The notes under the pieces were generated by a model, which was not told where the DNA came from, did not search any database, and was given only the letters and a program-made list of their open reading frames with translations. Shown here piece by piece: positions 2,911 through 32,327 of a stretch of 32,531 bases of DNA. Each line of letters starts with the position of its first letter. Within the stretch, counting starts at the first letter, position 1. The stretch is from a virus, in IMG/VR virus record IMGVR_UViG_3300025840_000142, positions 1 through 32,531 of that record, one strand, 5' to 3'. A program made the translations under genes and the position numbers.

Positions 2911-4355
2911 TGAAAAATATAGTAGATACAGTCAAAAAATATCTAGATGAAAATTGTTGGGATGGTTATCGACAAGTCGGAATGAAAAAGAAAAATGGAA
3001 AGATGGTTCCGAATTGTGTTCCCAATAATGAGGCAGTAAAACAAGACAAAGATATTAAAGATCGAGAAGGAACACAACCAGCTAAGTATTATGCCAAAGA
3101 TGCTGAAGGTGATAAGATGTCTAAGTCTACAAAGACAGCTCGAGCAAAACATTTTGAAAGAGGAGCTGCCAAAGATGATAACGATCCCTCTGCATATGAA
3201 CCTGCACCAGGCGATAAGGGTGCAAAGACAAAACTTTCAAAGCACACAGTTGCAGTAAGAAAAAAGTTTCCACAACTCTATAAAGAAGAAGCTGCAACTT
3301 CTCTTAAAAAGAAAGCAGAAGCCTCTGGTATTTCTGCAAGTATTTTAAAACAAGTTTATAATCGAGGTGTGGCCGCCTGGAGAACAGGACATCGCCCAGG
3401 AACAACACCAGAGCAATGGGGTCATGCCCGAGTAAACTCTTTTATTTCAAAAGGAAAAGGCACTTGGGGTAAGGCCGATTCGGATCTTGCAGCTAAAGTT
3501 CGTAAAGAAAGTTTAGGTGAAGCAGATGAACATAGTTGGAGATCAGAGGGCCATTATACTGCTGACGGTAAAGAATGGACAGGAGATCAACACGCATATA
3601 ATGGTGTAGTAATGACTGGAAAAACACACAGCAAAAACAGTCAGAAACTTTATCATTACAAAGAACTACCCGCAGAACTTCGTCAAAAGATTGATGCTAA
3701 ATTAGGTGAAGCTACATCTTGGGCTCAACAAGCAGCAATTGCAATTGCCAAAAAGAAATCAGGCAAGTACAATAAAGAGGGTAAGAAAATTGACGAAGAA
3801 CATTGTCCTCATTGCGAAATGAAAAATGAAAAACACGAAAAGAATTGTCCAATGATGAAAGAAGAAGTAAATCTAATTGAGCAGAATTTTTATCGTGTAG
3901 GATCAGAAAAGTATTTTGATTTCTTCAATGGAATGAGAAAGCAGTATCAAGAAGGAACATATCAACCAACAGGTTTTGATAAAGAACTTATGGAAGGAGA
4001 CCTAGGTAGAGTAGCCACTCTTTCTGATGGTCAGATTGTTCCATTAGACTGTCCCATGATTGAGGAAGAAGAAGATAAAAAAGATGTTGAGTTGGGTAAA
4101 CCAAAGGCCGGCGGACCTAAAAAATACTACGTTTATGTTCGTGACCCAAGCACAGGTAATATTAAGAAAGTAACTTGGGGAGATACGACTGGACTAAAAG
4201 TTAAACTCAACAATCCAGAAGCACGAAAGAGTTTTGCTGCTCGGCATCAATGTTCTACACAGAAAGATAGAACAACTGCTGCTTACTGGGCCTGTAATTT
4301 ACCTCGTTATGCTAAACAACTTGGTTTATCTGGTGGTGGGAATTTTTACTGGTAA
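2910..4355 (+). CDS. mosaic prohead/virion-type protein (DUF6321 and DUF5824-like domains)
   Basis: A 481-residue, highly charged mosaic protein. In order it has an N-terminal module with DENCWDGYRQVGMKKKNGK (13-31) that opens many marine T4-like phage proteins. Next comes a DUF6321-like segment (about 58-120, SKSTKTARAKHFERG). It is followed by a DUF5824-like segment (about 131-200, VYNRGVAAWRTGHRPGTTP). Then come a short WAQQAAIAIAKKKSGKY motif (271-287), a cysteine pair CPHC (299-302) with C313 that may bind zinc, and a C-terminal domain (about 405-481) with SFAARHQC and AYWACNLPRY. From memory these modules recur in different combinations in virion or prohead-core proteins of cyanophage relatives. 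The role is probably structural or internal to the head. Acidic hinge regions separate the modules. Confidence 0.8.
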   Translation: MKNIVDTVKKYLDENCWDGYRQVGMKKKNGKMVPNCVPNNEAVKQDKDIKDREGTQPAKYYAKDAEGDKMSKSTKTARAKHFERGAAKDDNDPSAYEPAPGDKGAKTKLSKHTVAVRKKFPQLYKEEAATSLKKKAEASGISASILKQVYNRGVAAWRTGHRPGTTPEQWGHARVNSFISKGKGTWGKADSDLAAKVRKESLGEADEHSWRSEGHYTADGKEWTGDQHAYNGVVMTGKTHSKNSQKLYHYKELPAELRQKIDAKLGEATSWAQQAAIAIAKKKSGKYNKEGKKIDEEHCPHCEMKNEKHEKNCPMMKEEVNLIEQNFYRVGSEKYFDFFNGMRKQYQEGTYQPTGFDKELMEGDLGRVATLSDGQIVPLDCPMIEEEEDKKDVELGKPKAGGPKKYYVYVRDPSTGNIKKVTWGDTTGLKVKLNNPEARKSFAARHQCSTQKDRTTAAYWACNLPRYAKQLGLSGGGNFYW

Positions 4356-24162: not shown

Positions 24163-24442
24163 GATACATCCAGAAGATATAGAATCTAGAAGTATGGGCG
24201 CAGGTGGGGAAGACCTCATCATGGCTCGTGCTGCTAGAGAGAAATTTCCTTTCTCTATTGAGTGCAAGAACCAAGAAAAGATGAATGTTTGGTCTGCTAT
24301 GGAACAAGCAAGATCAAACTCAGGTGACTATGTTCCGCTAGTGATTATAAAGAAAAATAATGAAAAACCGTTAGCGGTTGTTGATGCAGAATTTTTTGTT
24401 AATATTATGGGAGAAATATATCATGGCAAAAAGACACGTTGA
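24086..24442 (+). CDS. PD-(D/E)XK-type nuclease-like protein
   Basis: A 118-residue protein. KGRRLQQWMRDLLIERL is an N-terminal helix. DIESRSMGAGGEDLIMARAA (31-50) places E42/D43 in a conserved loop. FPFSIECKNQEKMNVWSAME (54-73) gives the E59-x-K61 pair of a restriction-endonuclease-like fold. The size and layout suit small phage resolvase-like or endonuclease proteins. Similar proteins occur in marine T4-like phages near replication genes, as far as I recall. It may process branched DNA or degrade host DNA. It overlaps its neighbours by 77 and 20 nt. Confidence 0.75.
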   Translation: MKTQSAKAKGRRLQQWMRDLLIERLEIHPEDIESRSMGAGGEDLIMARAAREKFPFSIECKNQEKMNVWSAMEQARSNSGDYVPLVIIKKNNEKPLAVVDAEFFVNIMGEIYHGKKTR

Positions 24443-24992
24443 TTTAGATGATACTACAACAGAAGCTGATCTCTATAGAGCAGGAACACATTTGTTTATG
24501 TCAGATGTAGATGAGATTTCTTGTAAAGAAGCTATTGAGTTTATTTTAAAACATAATATAGAGAAAAAGAAAAATAAACATTTACAATTAATGATTTGTA
24601 GTAATGGTGGAGATGTTCCTGCCGCATTTGCATTGATTGATGTAATGAAAGCATCAAAGATTCCTGTTCATACTGTAGGTCTTGGTGTGATCGCTTCATG
24701 TGGTCTTTTAATTTTTATTGCAGGAGAACCAGGTAAACGAATATTGACTCCTAACACATCTATTCTTTCTCATCAATATAGTTGGGGATCATGGGGCAAA
24801 GAACATGAACTTTTTGCTCAGGTAAAAGAGTTTGAACTTTCCACAGAGAGAATGATTAGTCACTATAAAAAATGCACAGGTCTAGATGAATCAAAAATCA
24901 GAGAACATTTACTACCACCAGAAGATCGTTGGTTGTCTGCGAAAGAAGCTAAAAAGTTAAATCTATGCGATGAGATAAAGACTGTCTACTAA
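24423..24992 (+). CDS. clpP: ClpP-type serine protease
   Basis: A 189-residue ClpP-fold protease, starting at the ATG at 24423 with GGGAG 9 nt upstream. The catalytic triad looks intact: S92 in IASCG, H117 in SHQYS, and D168 in PEDRWLSAKEA. These spacings match bacterial ClpP (S98/H123/D172). ICSNGGDVPAAFALIDVM is the family's SxGG oxyanion segment. There is no propeptide. It could form a tetradecamer alone or mix with host ClpP and work with host ClpX or ClpA, for instance to redirect proteolysis during infection. No phage ATPase partner is present here. Phage prohead proteases also exist with this fold, but the sequence is closer to cellular ClpP. Confidence 0.85.
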   Translation: MAKRHVDLDDTTTEADLYRAGTHLFMSDVDEISCKEAIEFILKHNIEKKKNKHLQLMICSNGGDVPAAFALIDVMKASKIPVHTVGLGVIASCGLLIFIAGEPGKRILTPNTSILSHQYSWGSWGKEHELFAQVKEFELSTERMISHYKKCTGLDESKIREHLLPPEDRWLSAKEAKKLNLCDEIKTVY

Positions 24993-24998
24993 TAAATA
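24991..24998 (+). promoter_or_regulatory. late-promoter-like motif AATAAATA
   Basis: One mismatch from TATAAATA, inside the clpP stop region and 4 bases before the ATG at 25003. It precedes the three-gene ExbB/ExbD-like cassette. That ATG has no ribosome-binding site, so its mRNA may be leaderless or read from upstream. Confidence 0.45.
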
Positions 24999-25002
24999 GT
25001 TC

Positions 25003-25485
25003 ATGAAATCTTTATTTCTAAAATGGTGGCTTTTTGTGTGCGTTCATATTGTGATCGTATTTACAGCATATAAGTTTAATTTTTTTCAAGAATTACTTGA
25101 AAAAGATTCTACCAAATTAAGTTTTTTTCTTCTTCTGATCTTACTTGTGGTTACTTTTTGGATAGGCAGTAAAATCTTTTTTTATACTAGAAATAAAGTA
25201 GAAAGTAAAGAAGACTCAATAAATGATCTTTCTATTTTTTGGTTTATCGGTGAGGCTTGTTTAGCTATAGGTTTAGTTGGTACGGTAACCGGATTTATTA
25301 TAATGTTGGGGACAACATTTATTGGATTAGATGTTAGTAATACATCTTCTATGCAAGATGCTCTTGTAAAAATGTCTATAGGTATGTCTACAGCTCTGTA
25401 TACTACATTGATTGGTTTGTTAAGTTCTCTTTCTATCAAAGTTCAAATAATAAACTTTGAAAGAGCTATACAAAAAAGTCAATGA
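25003..25485 (+). CDS. MotA/TolQ/ExbB-family proton channel-like protein
   Basis: A 160-residue membrane protein with four hydrophobic helices (about 7-22, 40-61, 85-104 and 125-146). The last two carry the family hallmark: LAIGLVGTVTGFIIMLG (87-103), then LVKMSIGMSTALYTTLIGLL (121-140). The GTVxG motif and TM threonines (T94, T96, T134, T135) match the polar residues that line the ion path in ExbB and TolQ. These proteins form a pentamer around an ExbD/TolR dimer and turn proton flow into work. The next gene encodes an ExbD-like partner, with an ATGA overlap. The usual long cytoplasmic loop between TM helices is short, as in a minimal version. Confidence 0.8.
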   Translation: MKSLFLKWWLFVCVHIVIVFTAYKFNFFQELLEKDSTKLSFFLLLILLVVTFWIGSKIFFYTRNKVESKEDSINDLSIFWFIGEACLAIGLVGTVTGFIIMLGTTFIGLDVSNTSSMQDALVKMSIGMSTALYTTLIGLLSSLSIKVQIINFERAIQKSQ

Positions 25486-26135
25486 ATCGTTATTTTTCAA
25501 ACACAGCATTTATAGATTTACTATTCAACATCGTTGTAGGAATAGCATTTCTTTTTATTATTGCTTTTCTTTTAATTAATCCCGTATCTAAAAAGAATGA
25601 TGTCAAGTCTAAGGCAGACTATCTTATTATGCTTCATTGGGATAAAGAGTCTATTCATGATATTGATCTTTGGATAAAAGATCCAGAGGATAATATTCTT
25701 TCTTTTAAGCATAAAGATATAGGTTTTATGCATCTGGATAGAGATGATCTTGGAAGAAAGAATGATAAGATAAAATTTCCAAACGGAGAAGTAAAGATCA
25801 TAAAAAATAATGAAGAAACTGCGGCGTTAAGAGGTACAGTTCCTGGCCAATATATTGTAAATGTTCATGTGTATAGAAAAAAGGCAGAGTTTGATGAGGA
25901 GTCTGATAAATGGATAAACGAAGAATTACCTGTTACTGTCACTCTAATAAAAGTTAATCCTTATGAAGAAGTTTTGAGAAAAGAATTAATTTTTGTAAAA
26001 GAAGGCGAAGAAAAAACAGCATTTAGATTTTCTTTGGATGAGAATGGAGAGATAGTTAATTTCGATGAGGTGGAGATAAAAATAGTAAATGTTAGGGCAG
26101 AAAGATCAGTCTATAGTGGAACTGGAGGTTTTTAA
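25482..26135 (+). CDS. ExbD/TolR-like protein with DUF2135-like periplasmic domain
   Basis: A 217-residue protein with a short cytoplasmic end, then FIDLLFNIVVGIAFLFIIAF (10-29) as its only TM helix. D12 sits where ExbD and TolR carry their proton-binding Asp. The periplasmic part does not look like the ExbD fold or an OmpA-type peptidoglycan binder. DIDLWIKDPEDNILSF (60-75), HLDRDDLG and VPGQYIVNVHVY resemble the DUF2135/YfaP beta-sandwich. A further beta region follows to the end (VYSGTGGF). The ExbB-like gene overlaps its start and the third cassette gene overlaps its stop by one base, so the three probably form one complex. The partner contacted by the periplasmic domain is unknown. Confidence 0.7.
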   Translation: MNRYFSNTAFIDLLFNIVVGIAFLFIIAFLLINPVSKKNDVKSKADYLIMLHWDKESIHDIDLWIKDPEDNILSFKHKDIGFMHLDRDDLGRKNDKIKFPNGEVKIIKNNEETAALRGTVPGQYIVNVHVYRKKAEFDEESDKWINEELPVTVTLIKVNPYEEVLRKELIFVKEGEEKTAFRFSLDENGEIVNFDEVEIKIVNVRAERSVYSGTGGF

Positions 26136-26593
26136 TGGTATTAACTGAAACTCTTACCTATGTTGCCGTCTTATTTGTAGTTATAGTTTCTTTATGGACT
26201 ATTGTAGCTTATCCAAAAAATTATCTATTTAAGATATTTTTTATTCCGCTTTTTCTTTTTGTTGCAATAAGTGTGTTTGAAACTTATAATTCTATTTTGG
26301 GATATGCAACAACGGCAAATTTCAATAAGCAAATGCAATACTATTATCATGTAGTTGAGGGTGATAGAGTTTATATACTACTTCGTGGAGATAGAGGAGA
26401 TCCTAGACTCTATACTATGGAATATCATGAAAGTTATGAAGAAGAATTAGAGAAGATGAAGCAGAAATCCATGTCAGGAATTACTACATTTGGTGCATTT
26501 GAACAAGTATTAGCCAGAGATGCTGAGATTAATCGAGGAGACTGGATAATTTATGAAATGCCGTTTCAAGATATCATAAAGAAAGAAGATTGA
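26135..26593 (+). CDS. two-helix membrane protein of the ExbB/ExbD-like cassette
   Basis: A 152-residue protein starting in a TAATG overlap. It has two TM helices (about 8-24 and 30-50), then a soluble domain of about 100 residues rich in Tyr, Glu and Arg (YYHVVEGDRVYILLRGDRGD, GAFEQVLARDAEINRGDW). No family was recognised. With both termini likely on the same side of the membrane, the domain is cytoplasmic or periplasmic depending on topology. Charged loops after TM2 favour the cytoplasm only weakly. Its tight coupling to the two channel genes argues for a shared complex. Confidence 0.6.
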   Translation: MVLTETLTYVAVLFVVIVSLWTIVAYPKNYLFKIFFIPLFLFVAISVFETYNSILGYATTANFNKQMQYYYHVVEGDRVYILLRGDRGDPRLYTMEYHESYEEELEKMKQKSMSGITTFGAFEQVLARDAEINRGDWIIYEMPFQDIIKKED

Positions 26594-30884: not shown

Positions 30885-31174
30885 TGGCAGTGGGTAATTG
30901 GGCAGACTGGCAAGTTACTTTACTTGCGGACAGTTTGGGAGTAAAGAAACCAAAACGAGAATGGTTTAAGGGTGAGCAAAACAGTTACGCAACATCACTA
31001 CGAAGTTGGAGTCATATCACTGGTAAAATTTTAACTGAGTTAAAATTGGAAGAACGTCAAATGATTTTGTTCATATACCATTTGGGTCTTGAACACGTTG
31101 GTGTAGATACGTTTGAAATAACGGACGATGTAAGAAGTGATTATAAACCAAGTGAGGAGTATACAAAGTTATAA
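30884..31174 (+). CDS. small phage protein of unknown function
   Basis: A 96-residue soluble protein starting in a TAATG overlap. WADWQVTLLADSLGVKKPKR (6-25) and ILTELKLEERQMILFIYHLG suggest a helical bundle, with an acidic beta-like end (FEITDDVRSDYKPSEEY). No membrane helix or metal motif was seen. It lies between a metallopeptidase and the endolysin-like gene; no family was recognised. Confidence 0.6.
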   Translation: MAVGNWADWQVTLLADSLGVKKPKREWFKGEQNSYATSLRSWSHITGKILTELKLEERQMILFIYHLGLEHVGVDTFEITDDVRSDYKPSEEYTKL

Positions 31175-31647
31175 TGGAACCTTCAATGAGTATTGTTTGG
31201 GCCGTCATGGCAGTTTTTTCGCCAGTACTTCTTAATTTGGGTATGGTTGAAGATGATAATATAGACCGTGAAGAAATTTACTGTGCGGCTCAAAACATTT
31301 ATTTTGAGAGTAGAGGTGAACCGGATATCGGTCAAGTAGCAGTCGGTCAAGTTGTAATGAATCGAGTAAGAAGTAATCGATGGCCCAACACAATTTGTGG
31401 AGTTGTTTGGCAAGAAAAACAATTTAGTTGGACTCACGATGGAAAGAGTGATAGAATCAGTTTACTTAATTCTATTAATAGAGAGTCATGGATAAAATCT
31501 GTTTATTATGCAGTAACAGCTTTACACGAAAATGATATAACAAACGGAGCAACACACTATCATAGTATTAATGTTACGCCATATTGGGCAAGATACATGG
31601 AAGTAACAGCAATGATTGGTAATCACATATTTTATAGGGAAAGATAA
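31174..31647 (+). CDS. SleB-type cell wall hydrolase (probable endolysin)
   Basis: A 157-residue protein. The N-terminal hydrophobic stretch (about 6-23, IVWAVMAVFSPVLLNLG) is a signal peptide or signal-anchor-release segment. The hydrolase domain (PF07486 type, about 36-157) has CAAQNIYFESRGEPDIGQVA with catalytic Glu E45, then VMNRVRSNRWPNTICGVVW, QFSWTHDG and the ATHYHS strand. SleB-type enzymes are lytic transglycosylases or amidases that cut peptidoglycan. It is the best endolysin candidate here, although the spanin-like genes lie about 20 kb away. Its export segment means no holin would be strictly needed. It overlaps the previous gene by one base. Confidence 0.88.
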   Translation: MEPSMSIVWAVMAVFSPVLLNLGMVEDDNIDREEIYCAAQNIYFESRGEPDIGQVAVGQVVMNRVRSNRWPNTICGVVWQEKQFSWTHDGKSDRISLLNSINRESWIKSVYYAVTALHENDITNGATHYHSINVTPYWARYMEVTAMIGNHIFYRER

Positions 31648-31648
31648 G

Positions 31649-31870
31649 ATGAAATTAAATCCACTAAATATTTTGAGCGTTGATGCACATTTTCATTCCG
31701 AACAGGACAGAATTGAAAATGCAAATAAAAATAAACTAAAGGGTGTAGGAAGATTACTCTATCTAGGAAGAAAGGTAAAATTATCCAAGATAGATAGTTT
31801 ACTTGAGTCTGGAAAAGGACTTGCAAATATTAAAGTTATAAAAACTGAACAGGAGAAAAAGGGTGAATAA
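31649..31870 (+). CDS. small basic phage protein
   Basis: A 73-residue protein starting at the ATG at 31649, one base after the hydrolase stop. It is helical and basic (NPLNILSVDAHFHSEQDRI, GVGRLLYLGRKVKLSKID), with no TM or cysteine. It overlaps the lipoprotein gene by 8 nt. No family was recognised. Confidence 0.55.
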   Translation: MKLNPLNILSVDAHFHSEQDRIENANKNKLKGVGRLLYLGRKVKLSKIDSLLESGKGLANIKVIKTEQEKKGE

Positions 31871-32327
31871 ATTATTAATCGCTACCGTTGTTTCTGCAAC
31901 TATGTTGACTGGTTGTGCTAATATGAGTAATGAGCAACAGGGACAAGTTGCAGGTGTTGCTATTGGTACTATTTTAGCACATAACGCATCAAAGGGTCAT
32001 AAGGATCGTGGTGTAGCTCTTGTACTAGGTGCTCTAGCTGGTGGTTTTATTGGAAGTCAAATAGGCGCATCTTTAGATGAACGAGATCGGCAACTGCACG
32101 GCAATACTACATATGATGCTCTGGAAACTCAACCAGACAATACAGTGTCACAATGGAACAATCCTAACACAGGACATTCTGGTACAGTAGTTCCCACACA
32201 AACTTGGATGGCACATTCAGGAACTTATTGTCGAGAGTATGTTCAGACTATCTATGTTGGTGGTCGTGAGGAACAAGCATACGGAACGGCTTGCCGGCAG
32301 GCTGATGGTTCCTGGAAAATGATGTAG
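31863..32327 (+). CDS. 17-kDa surface antigen-type lipoprotein with glycine zipper
   Basis: A 154-residue predicted lipoprotein. It starts with GTG and has AGGAG 7 nt upstream. The lipobox MLTGC places the acylated Cys at 18. A glycine-zipper segment follows (VAGVAIGTILAHN and LVLGALAGGFIGSQIGASLD, about 29-72), ending in DERDRQ, as in rickettsial 17-kDa antigen proteins. The C-terminal domain (about 118-154) has YCREYVQTIYVGG and AYGTACRQADGSWKMM, the surface-antigen end seen in alphaproteobacteria. It should go to the outer membrane. This is a host-like protein in a phage and may act in lysis, envelope stabilisation or superinfection exclusion. Confidence 0.88.
   Translation: MNKLLIATVVSATMLTGCANMSNEQQGQVAGVAIGTILAHNASKGHKDRGVALVLGALAGGFIGSQIGASLDERDRQLHGNTTYDALETQPDNTVSQWNNPNTGHSGTVVPTQTWMAHSGTYCREYVQTIYVGGREEQAYGTACRQADGSWKMM

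Follow-up and report, generated by a model that had tools for sequence, protein, structure and literature searches.

The genes B, D and T of the window, by which we mean the whole 32.5-kb IMG/VR virus fragment analysed here, encode what appears to be an undescribed proton-driven device of the Ton/Tol/Mot class, and its identity as a motor of this class, judged from sequence, is well supported; it is best classed as a new sub-type. Motors driven by protons form a small and well-studied class, to which the trio would add a sub-type that is widespread and apparently undescribed; its novelty lies in a new periplasmic domain, carried by D, and in a new third subunit, T. As to what it does, a motor of the MotA/TolQ/ExbB class that serves phages in late work on the envelope, together with the endolysin, is our tentative first choice, possible rather than likely; envelope maintenance and exclusion of other phages are its main rivals.

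In the open-licence literature we found no description of a phage-encoded ExbBD-like trio and no paper containing the term 'DUF2135'. The retrieved passages of PMC12505986 do not describe the B-D-T trio either; they report that the partners with which the B subunits of generic ion transporters work are varied and frequently escape detection, in agreement with B-D-T.

The locus in the window

The features to which we refer are the following (positions of the window):

24378-24992, + strand: gene of a ClpP-like protease (PF00574, E=2.4e-29), directly 5' of B
24992-24998, + strand: ATAAATA, a putative T4-late-promoter-like element between the ClpP-like stop and the start of B
25003-25485, + strand: B, ORF of 160 aa, channel subunit of the MotA/TolQ/ExbB type (PF01618, E=1e-8)
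25482-26135, + strand: D, ORF of 217 aa, subunit in the ExbD/MotB position, with TM Asp12 and a DUF2135-like beta-sandwich
26135-26593, + strand: T, ORF of 152 aa, third subunit, with two TM helices and a small alpha/beta domain
31174-31647, + strand: SleB-type (Hydrolase_2) endolysin (PF07486, E=1.5e-29; PHROG endolysin) with a hydrophobic N-terminus

B, D and T (25003-26593) lie on the same strand and adjoining ORFs overlap or abut, at exactly the coordinates claimed in the sequence-only reading, which had noticed an overlapping three-gene layout.

The three subunits

By its profile matches B is a genuine member of the MotA/TolQ/ExbB family, as had been proposed from its likeness to an ExbB/TolQ-type channel: the HMM search with MotA_ExbB (Pfam PF01618) matched it at E=1e-8, above the curated cut-off, and matched 50 of 50 members of the B alignment. 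The B profile aligns with the GTVWG and ALIATAIGL segments of TolQ, over the channel helices, and conservation is nearly complete at G90 and G93 (both 115/115), T135 (114/115) and T94 (111/115). B apparently has four TM helices and a very short cytoplasmic loop, and measures about 160 aa in phages as against 200-309 aa in cells. A tblastn search with B gave zero matches in named phages, because B diverges fast.

The TM Asp ascribed to the ExbD-like protein is confirmed, D12 being present in 115 of 120 D homologues, and together with a MotA_ExbB-class B it bears out the ion-motor arrangement. Five cellular members have Val or Ala at this position, and all of them are accompanied by B and T; these D proteins, which lack the Asp despite the presence of B, count against the motor reading. 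They make up a cellular sub-clade (L133, L138, L152, L167 and L170) that is perhaps a non-motor derivative. The residues D60, D62, D88, G91 and E112 are invariant (120/120 homologues), and the acidic ones among them suggest a metal site.

The AF2 model of D (pLDDT 87.6) has a periplasmic beta-sandwich, and profile-profile alignment with hhalign relates D to DUF2135 (Prob 96.5, E 8e-10; column-shuffled control 0.1) and gives a Prob below 1 for ExbD. The earlier suggestion that a DUF2135/YfaP-like domain stands in place of an ExbD or OmpA-type one therefore holds; by HMMER alone DUF2135 is weakly detected in 4 of 53 D relatives, and the D of the window falls below the cut-off. None of the 53 members matches PF02472 (ExbD), and with the hhalign result we rejected D as an ExbD. 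The sandwich shares with DUF2135/YfaP proteins the pattern DxDLxV..P.G and LDxD..G..E, but those proteins are not TM-Asp proteins within a motor operon. In L139 a D-like protein (3718-4254) has an apparent secretion signal replacing the TM-Asp helix; its gene adjoins a full-length, solitary D, and neither B nor T is found there.

T proved to be the two-TM protein that had been described, with helices at 2-25 and 30-55 in the AF2 model (pLDDT 86.6), followed by a small C-terminal alpha/beta domain whose neighbours in a Foldseek search of the PDB are OB-like and insignificant (best E=0.1). No TonB_C or TolA domain was matched in Pfam among 48 T proteins, and T is neither TonB nor TolA. The positive charge of the loop between the helices favours a topology in which the two termini face outwards and the short loop inwards, and the C-terminal domain is predicted to be periplasmic. 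Pfam, NCBIfam and PHROG hold no family of its own for D and no named family for T, and among solved structures none convincingly matches D or T, which weighs against the reading proposed here.

In the mechanism that we propose, B, presumably a pentamer, would encircle a D dimer at its TM helices, giving a 5:2 assembly; the proton path would run along D12 and the conserved Thr/Gly faces of B, and motion would be delivered in the periplasm through the DUF2135-like domain of D and through T, which would occupy the position of TonB or TolA in the Ton and Tol systems. The likeness to TolQ-TolR-TolA and ExbB-ExbD-TonB consists in the GTVWG and ALxxTxxGL segments of the channel, a small TM-Asp subunit, a third membrane subunit reaching the periplasm and the adjacency of the genes. 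In contrast to these systems, B apparently pairs four TM helices with a short loop, the periplasmic domain of D is DUF2135 and not that of ExbD/TolR, and T combines two TM helices with an OB-like domain in place of a TonB/TolA domain. With the MotA-MotB stator the trio shares a four-TM-like channel subunit and an Asp-bearing TM partner; it differs in having neither an OmpA-type peptidoglycan-binding domain nor a flagellar context, and phage B lacks the large cytoplasmic torque loop of MotA.

Distribution among viruses

A motif scan of IMG/VR yielded 256 relatives, of which 80 were kept for analysis and form, with the window and named phages, a viral set of 90 loci. B was found in 88 of them, the two misses (L013 and L058) beginning at a contig edge, and T in 83 by profile or 89 by clustering; the order is always B-D-T on one strand. 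The same order holds in 58 of 65 cellular loci, so that the co-occurrence expected of the three genes is real, and since it recurs in essentially every D-containing locus, viral and cellular, the trio is not a product of chance. A tblastn search with D returned 27 records, all of them Rhizobium or Sinorhizobium phages, in which the neighbours of D align with B and T. These rhizobiophages span unrelated groups: the 171-kb I1_18, Pootjesviridae, the 68-kb N3_19 types and the temperate 16-3 types.

The T-lysozyme fusion and the endolysin slot

In 13 contigs (L013-L023, L026 and L027) the reading frame of T continues, uninterrupted by a stop codon, into a Phage_lysozyme domain (E 3e-49), and four further contigs bring the total of such fusions to 17. 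The expected catalytic Glu, Asp and Thr of this T4-type lysozyme are intact. In the D tree the fusion rows cluster with one phage-like MAG contig, the window and L012 standing just outside, and on this topology the fusion is one evolutionary event within a single clade. In L012 T is unfused, and a slot located some 5.5 kb downstream is occupied by a free-standing lysozyme 69% identical to the fused domain; in the window and its close relatives a SleB-type endolysin fills this slot. The fusion-clade contigs that cover the slot contain neither SleB nor lysozyme there, and SleB and the fused lysozyme are mutually exclusive within the clade, so that the endolysin appears to have moved from the downstream slot onto T.

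At the fusion junction a GGAG/GAGGATGA-like (Shine-Dalgarno-like) stretch precedes an in-frame ATG or GTG in 13 of 13 contigs, and free lysozyme is therefore probably produced from the fusion genes as well. The topology of T would place the fused lysozyme outside the inner membrane. It thereby resembles T4-type lysozymes and signal-anchor endolysins, in which an exported muramidase with its catalytic Glu/Asp/Thr is held at the membrane, except that a motor subunit takes the place of the simple signal anchor. The hydrophobic N-termini of the window endolysin and of the L012 lysozyme reading frame are suggestive of signal-anchor endolysins. In a second, distant lineage (L083) the gap from D to a downstream lysozyme is about 1.9 kb. 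For most of the remaining phages, a search with two families either placed the endolysin far away from the trio or did not find one.

Proposed late work on the envelope

We suggest that the phage trio acts late in infection, working with the endolysin at the cell envelope, and that T would position, tether or gate the peptidoglycan hydrolase; alternatively, the motor might strain the envelope while the wall is being cut. Among the functions first proposed, the fusion of T to lysozyme and the motif resembling a late promoter favour those at the envelope and in lysis; for fibre handling there is no indication. The narrower proposal of a lysis motor, in which work drawn from the proton gradient would activate, deliver or gate a T-borne wall-cutting enzyme, we consider rather unlikely. 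If true, it would constitute a principle of lysis distinct from holins, pinholins, releasins and spanins, and a phage motor in lysis would be a new control of cell-wall rupture. The natural T-lysozyme fusion and the short operon in named rhizobiophages make the function directly testable.

The layout of the trio resembles a T4-type late unit. ATAAATA stands between ClpP and B in the window and in all fusion-clade relatives with ClpP upstream, and it precedes 15 of 47 non-redundant phage B genes, compared with 40 of 490 other genes (Fisher p=1.4e-5, uncorrected for relatedness). However, the motif precedes only one of six gp23 capsid genes checked, which led us to reject the capsid-gene check as a validation of the T4-late-promoter reading, and in the window its distance from the ATG of B is too small for a normal leader; the late timing that the layout would imply is therefore provisional. 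Further evidence for late timing is that sigma70-like (host-type) promoters occur directly 3' of T in several relatives.

Several observations weigh against a role at the envelope in lysis. As far as the contigs indicate, the fusion is confined to one clade, where free lysozyme is probably made as well, and for most phages outside it the endolysin is distant or not found. In N3_19 the trio belongs to the replication block, and the lysozyme of that phage lies in the late region opposite. The cellular homologues have no evident role in lysis, and Patescibacteria, some of which carry the trio, have no outer membrane.

Cellular copies and possible envelope maintenance

A scan of bacterial genome contigs gave ten loci, with the full trio in 10 of 10. 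Plainly chromosomal examples lie next to suf genes in a Pelagibacteraceae MAG, on a 7-Mb Desulfobacterales chromosome and in Patescibacteria MAGs. The D profile matched 57 of 385 sampled alphaproteobacterial genomes (about 15%) and 1 of 287 Patescibacteria genomes, and the trio is also present in a few Desulfobacterota, Myxococcota and Patescibacteria. Within the 65 cellular loci B was found in 60 and T in 58, and no constant fourth gene was seen across them. Ordinary ExbD/TolR proteins are encoded as well in 40 of 41 trio-host genomes, and the trio is therefore an additional system. The description of a phage-encoded device thus stands in so far as phages carry it; since it also forms a chromosomal operon in Alphaproteobacteria and a small number of other phyla, phages did not invent it.

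In the tree of 120 D proteins phage and cellular rows interleave, and a minimum of four switches between them is forced; the temperate rhizobiophages join one cellular set, the lytic ones are placed elsewhere, and phage proteins fall mostly into phage-only clades. On this tree the trio moves between bacteria and phages, which acquired it on more than one occasion.

The interleaving, the chromosomal trios of many Alphaproteobacteria and others, and the position of the trio amid replication and nucleotide genes in several phages speak for the view that phages maintain the envelope with a spare, host-derived trans-envelope motor, Tol-Pal-like, kept as auxiliary genes for a long infection, the lysozyme fusion being an incidental loss of a stop codon. 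Yet the phage B is shortened, the phage sequences keep mostly to clades of their own and the T-lysozyme frame is retained in 17 contigs, and we regard this explanation as doubtful, though the best of the rivals.

Exclusion of other phages and proton leakage as possible roles

Weak similarity of B to ZorA models, and a motor-class membrane complex tied to phage biology, recall ZorA-ZorB of Zorya, and the trio might by analogy serve superinfection exclusion or defence against other phages, by sensing or blocking phage DNA or tail lysozyme that arrives at the wall. Many phages encode exclusion proteins of the membrane, and temperate phages carry the trio, for instance 16-3, between the immX genes and the integrase. 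The trio differs from Zorya, however, in lacking the ZorA tail, the OmpA domain of ZorB and any ZorC/D/E-like partner, and in being carried by phages themselves and by chromosomes, where it is constant and stands outside defence contexts. The ZorA scores fall far below the cut-off and D and T have no match in the defence library, so that the trio was rejected as a Zorya system; no Zorya effector families were seen among its recurrent neighbours in the 90 viral loci. Exclusion thus seems improbable, clearly more so than envelope maintenance.

Least credible of all is a non-mechanical, pinholin-like trigger, in which B and D as a regulated proton channel would discharge or sense the proton motive force and so time the release of membrane-tethered endolysins: the hydrophobic N-termini of the window endolysin and the L012 lysozyme frame, and the lysozyme tied to T in one clade, would suit it, but motor-class channels are normally plugged and of low conductance, no observation points directly to a leak, and the trio is retained by cells that need to hold their proton motive force.

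Neighbouring genes

A ClpP-like family occurs near the trio in 35 of the 90 viral loci, at variable distance; a frequent neighbour, it was rejected as a constant fourth gene of the phage trio. The same verdict applies in cells to a lipoprotein gene of about 230-260 aa (YFPL..G..W.Y), which lies 3' of T in ten cellular loci only (L135, L136 and L142 among them; tripled in L142) and whose product is a possible outer-membrane partner. Close to the SleB endolysin, the window encodes a glycine-zipper/17-kDa-antigen-like lipoprotein (31863-32327; PF16998, E=8e-10), possibly an outer-membrane lysis partner that replaces a spanin.

Several rhizobiophages have a homing endonuclease gene between B and D; the genes inserted in L008 (7264-8001) and L009 (7225-7983) sit exactly at the B/D boundary, and that of L009 is annotated as a Seg-like homing endonuclease. 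In temperate rhizobiophages a trypsin-like peptidase gene is found just 5' of the trio (L004 6247-7146, L007 6601-7248, L009 6093-6803), and p036 of phage 16-3 is annotated as typically periplasmic. The large phage genomes L031, L051 and L086 carry full Hsp70 and small Hsp20 genes, and in L031 ClpS adjoins the trio.
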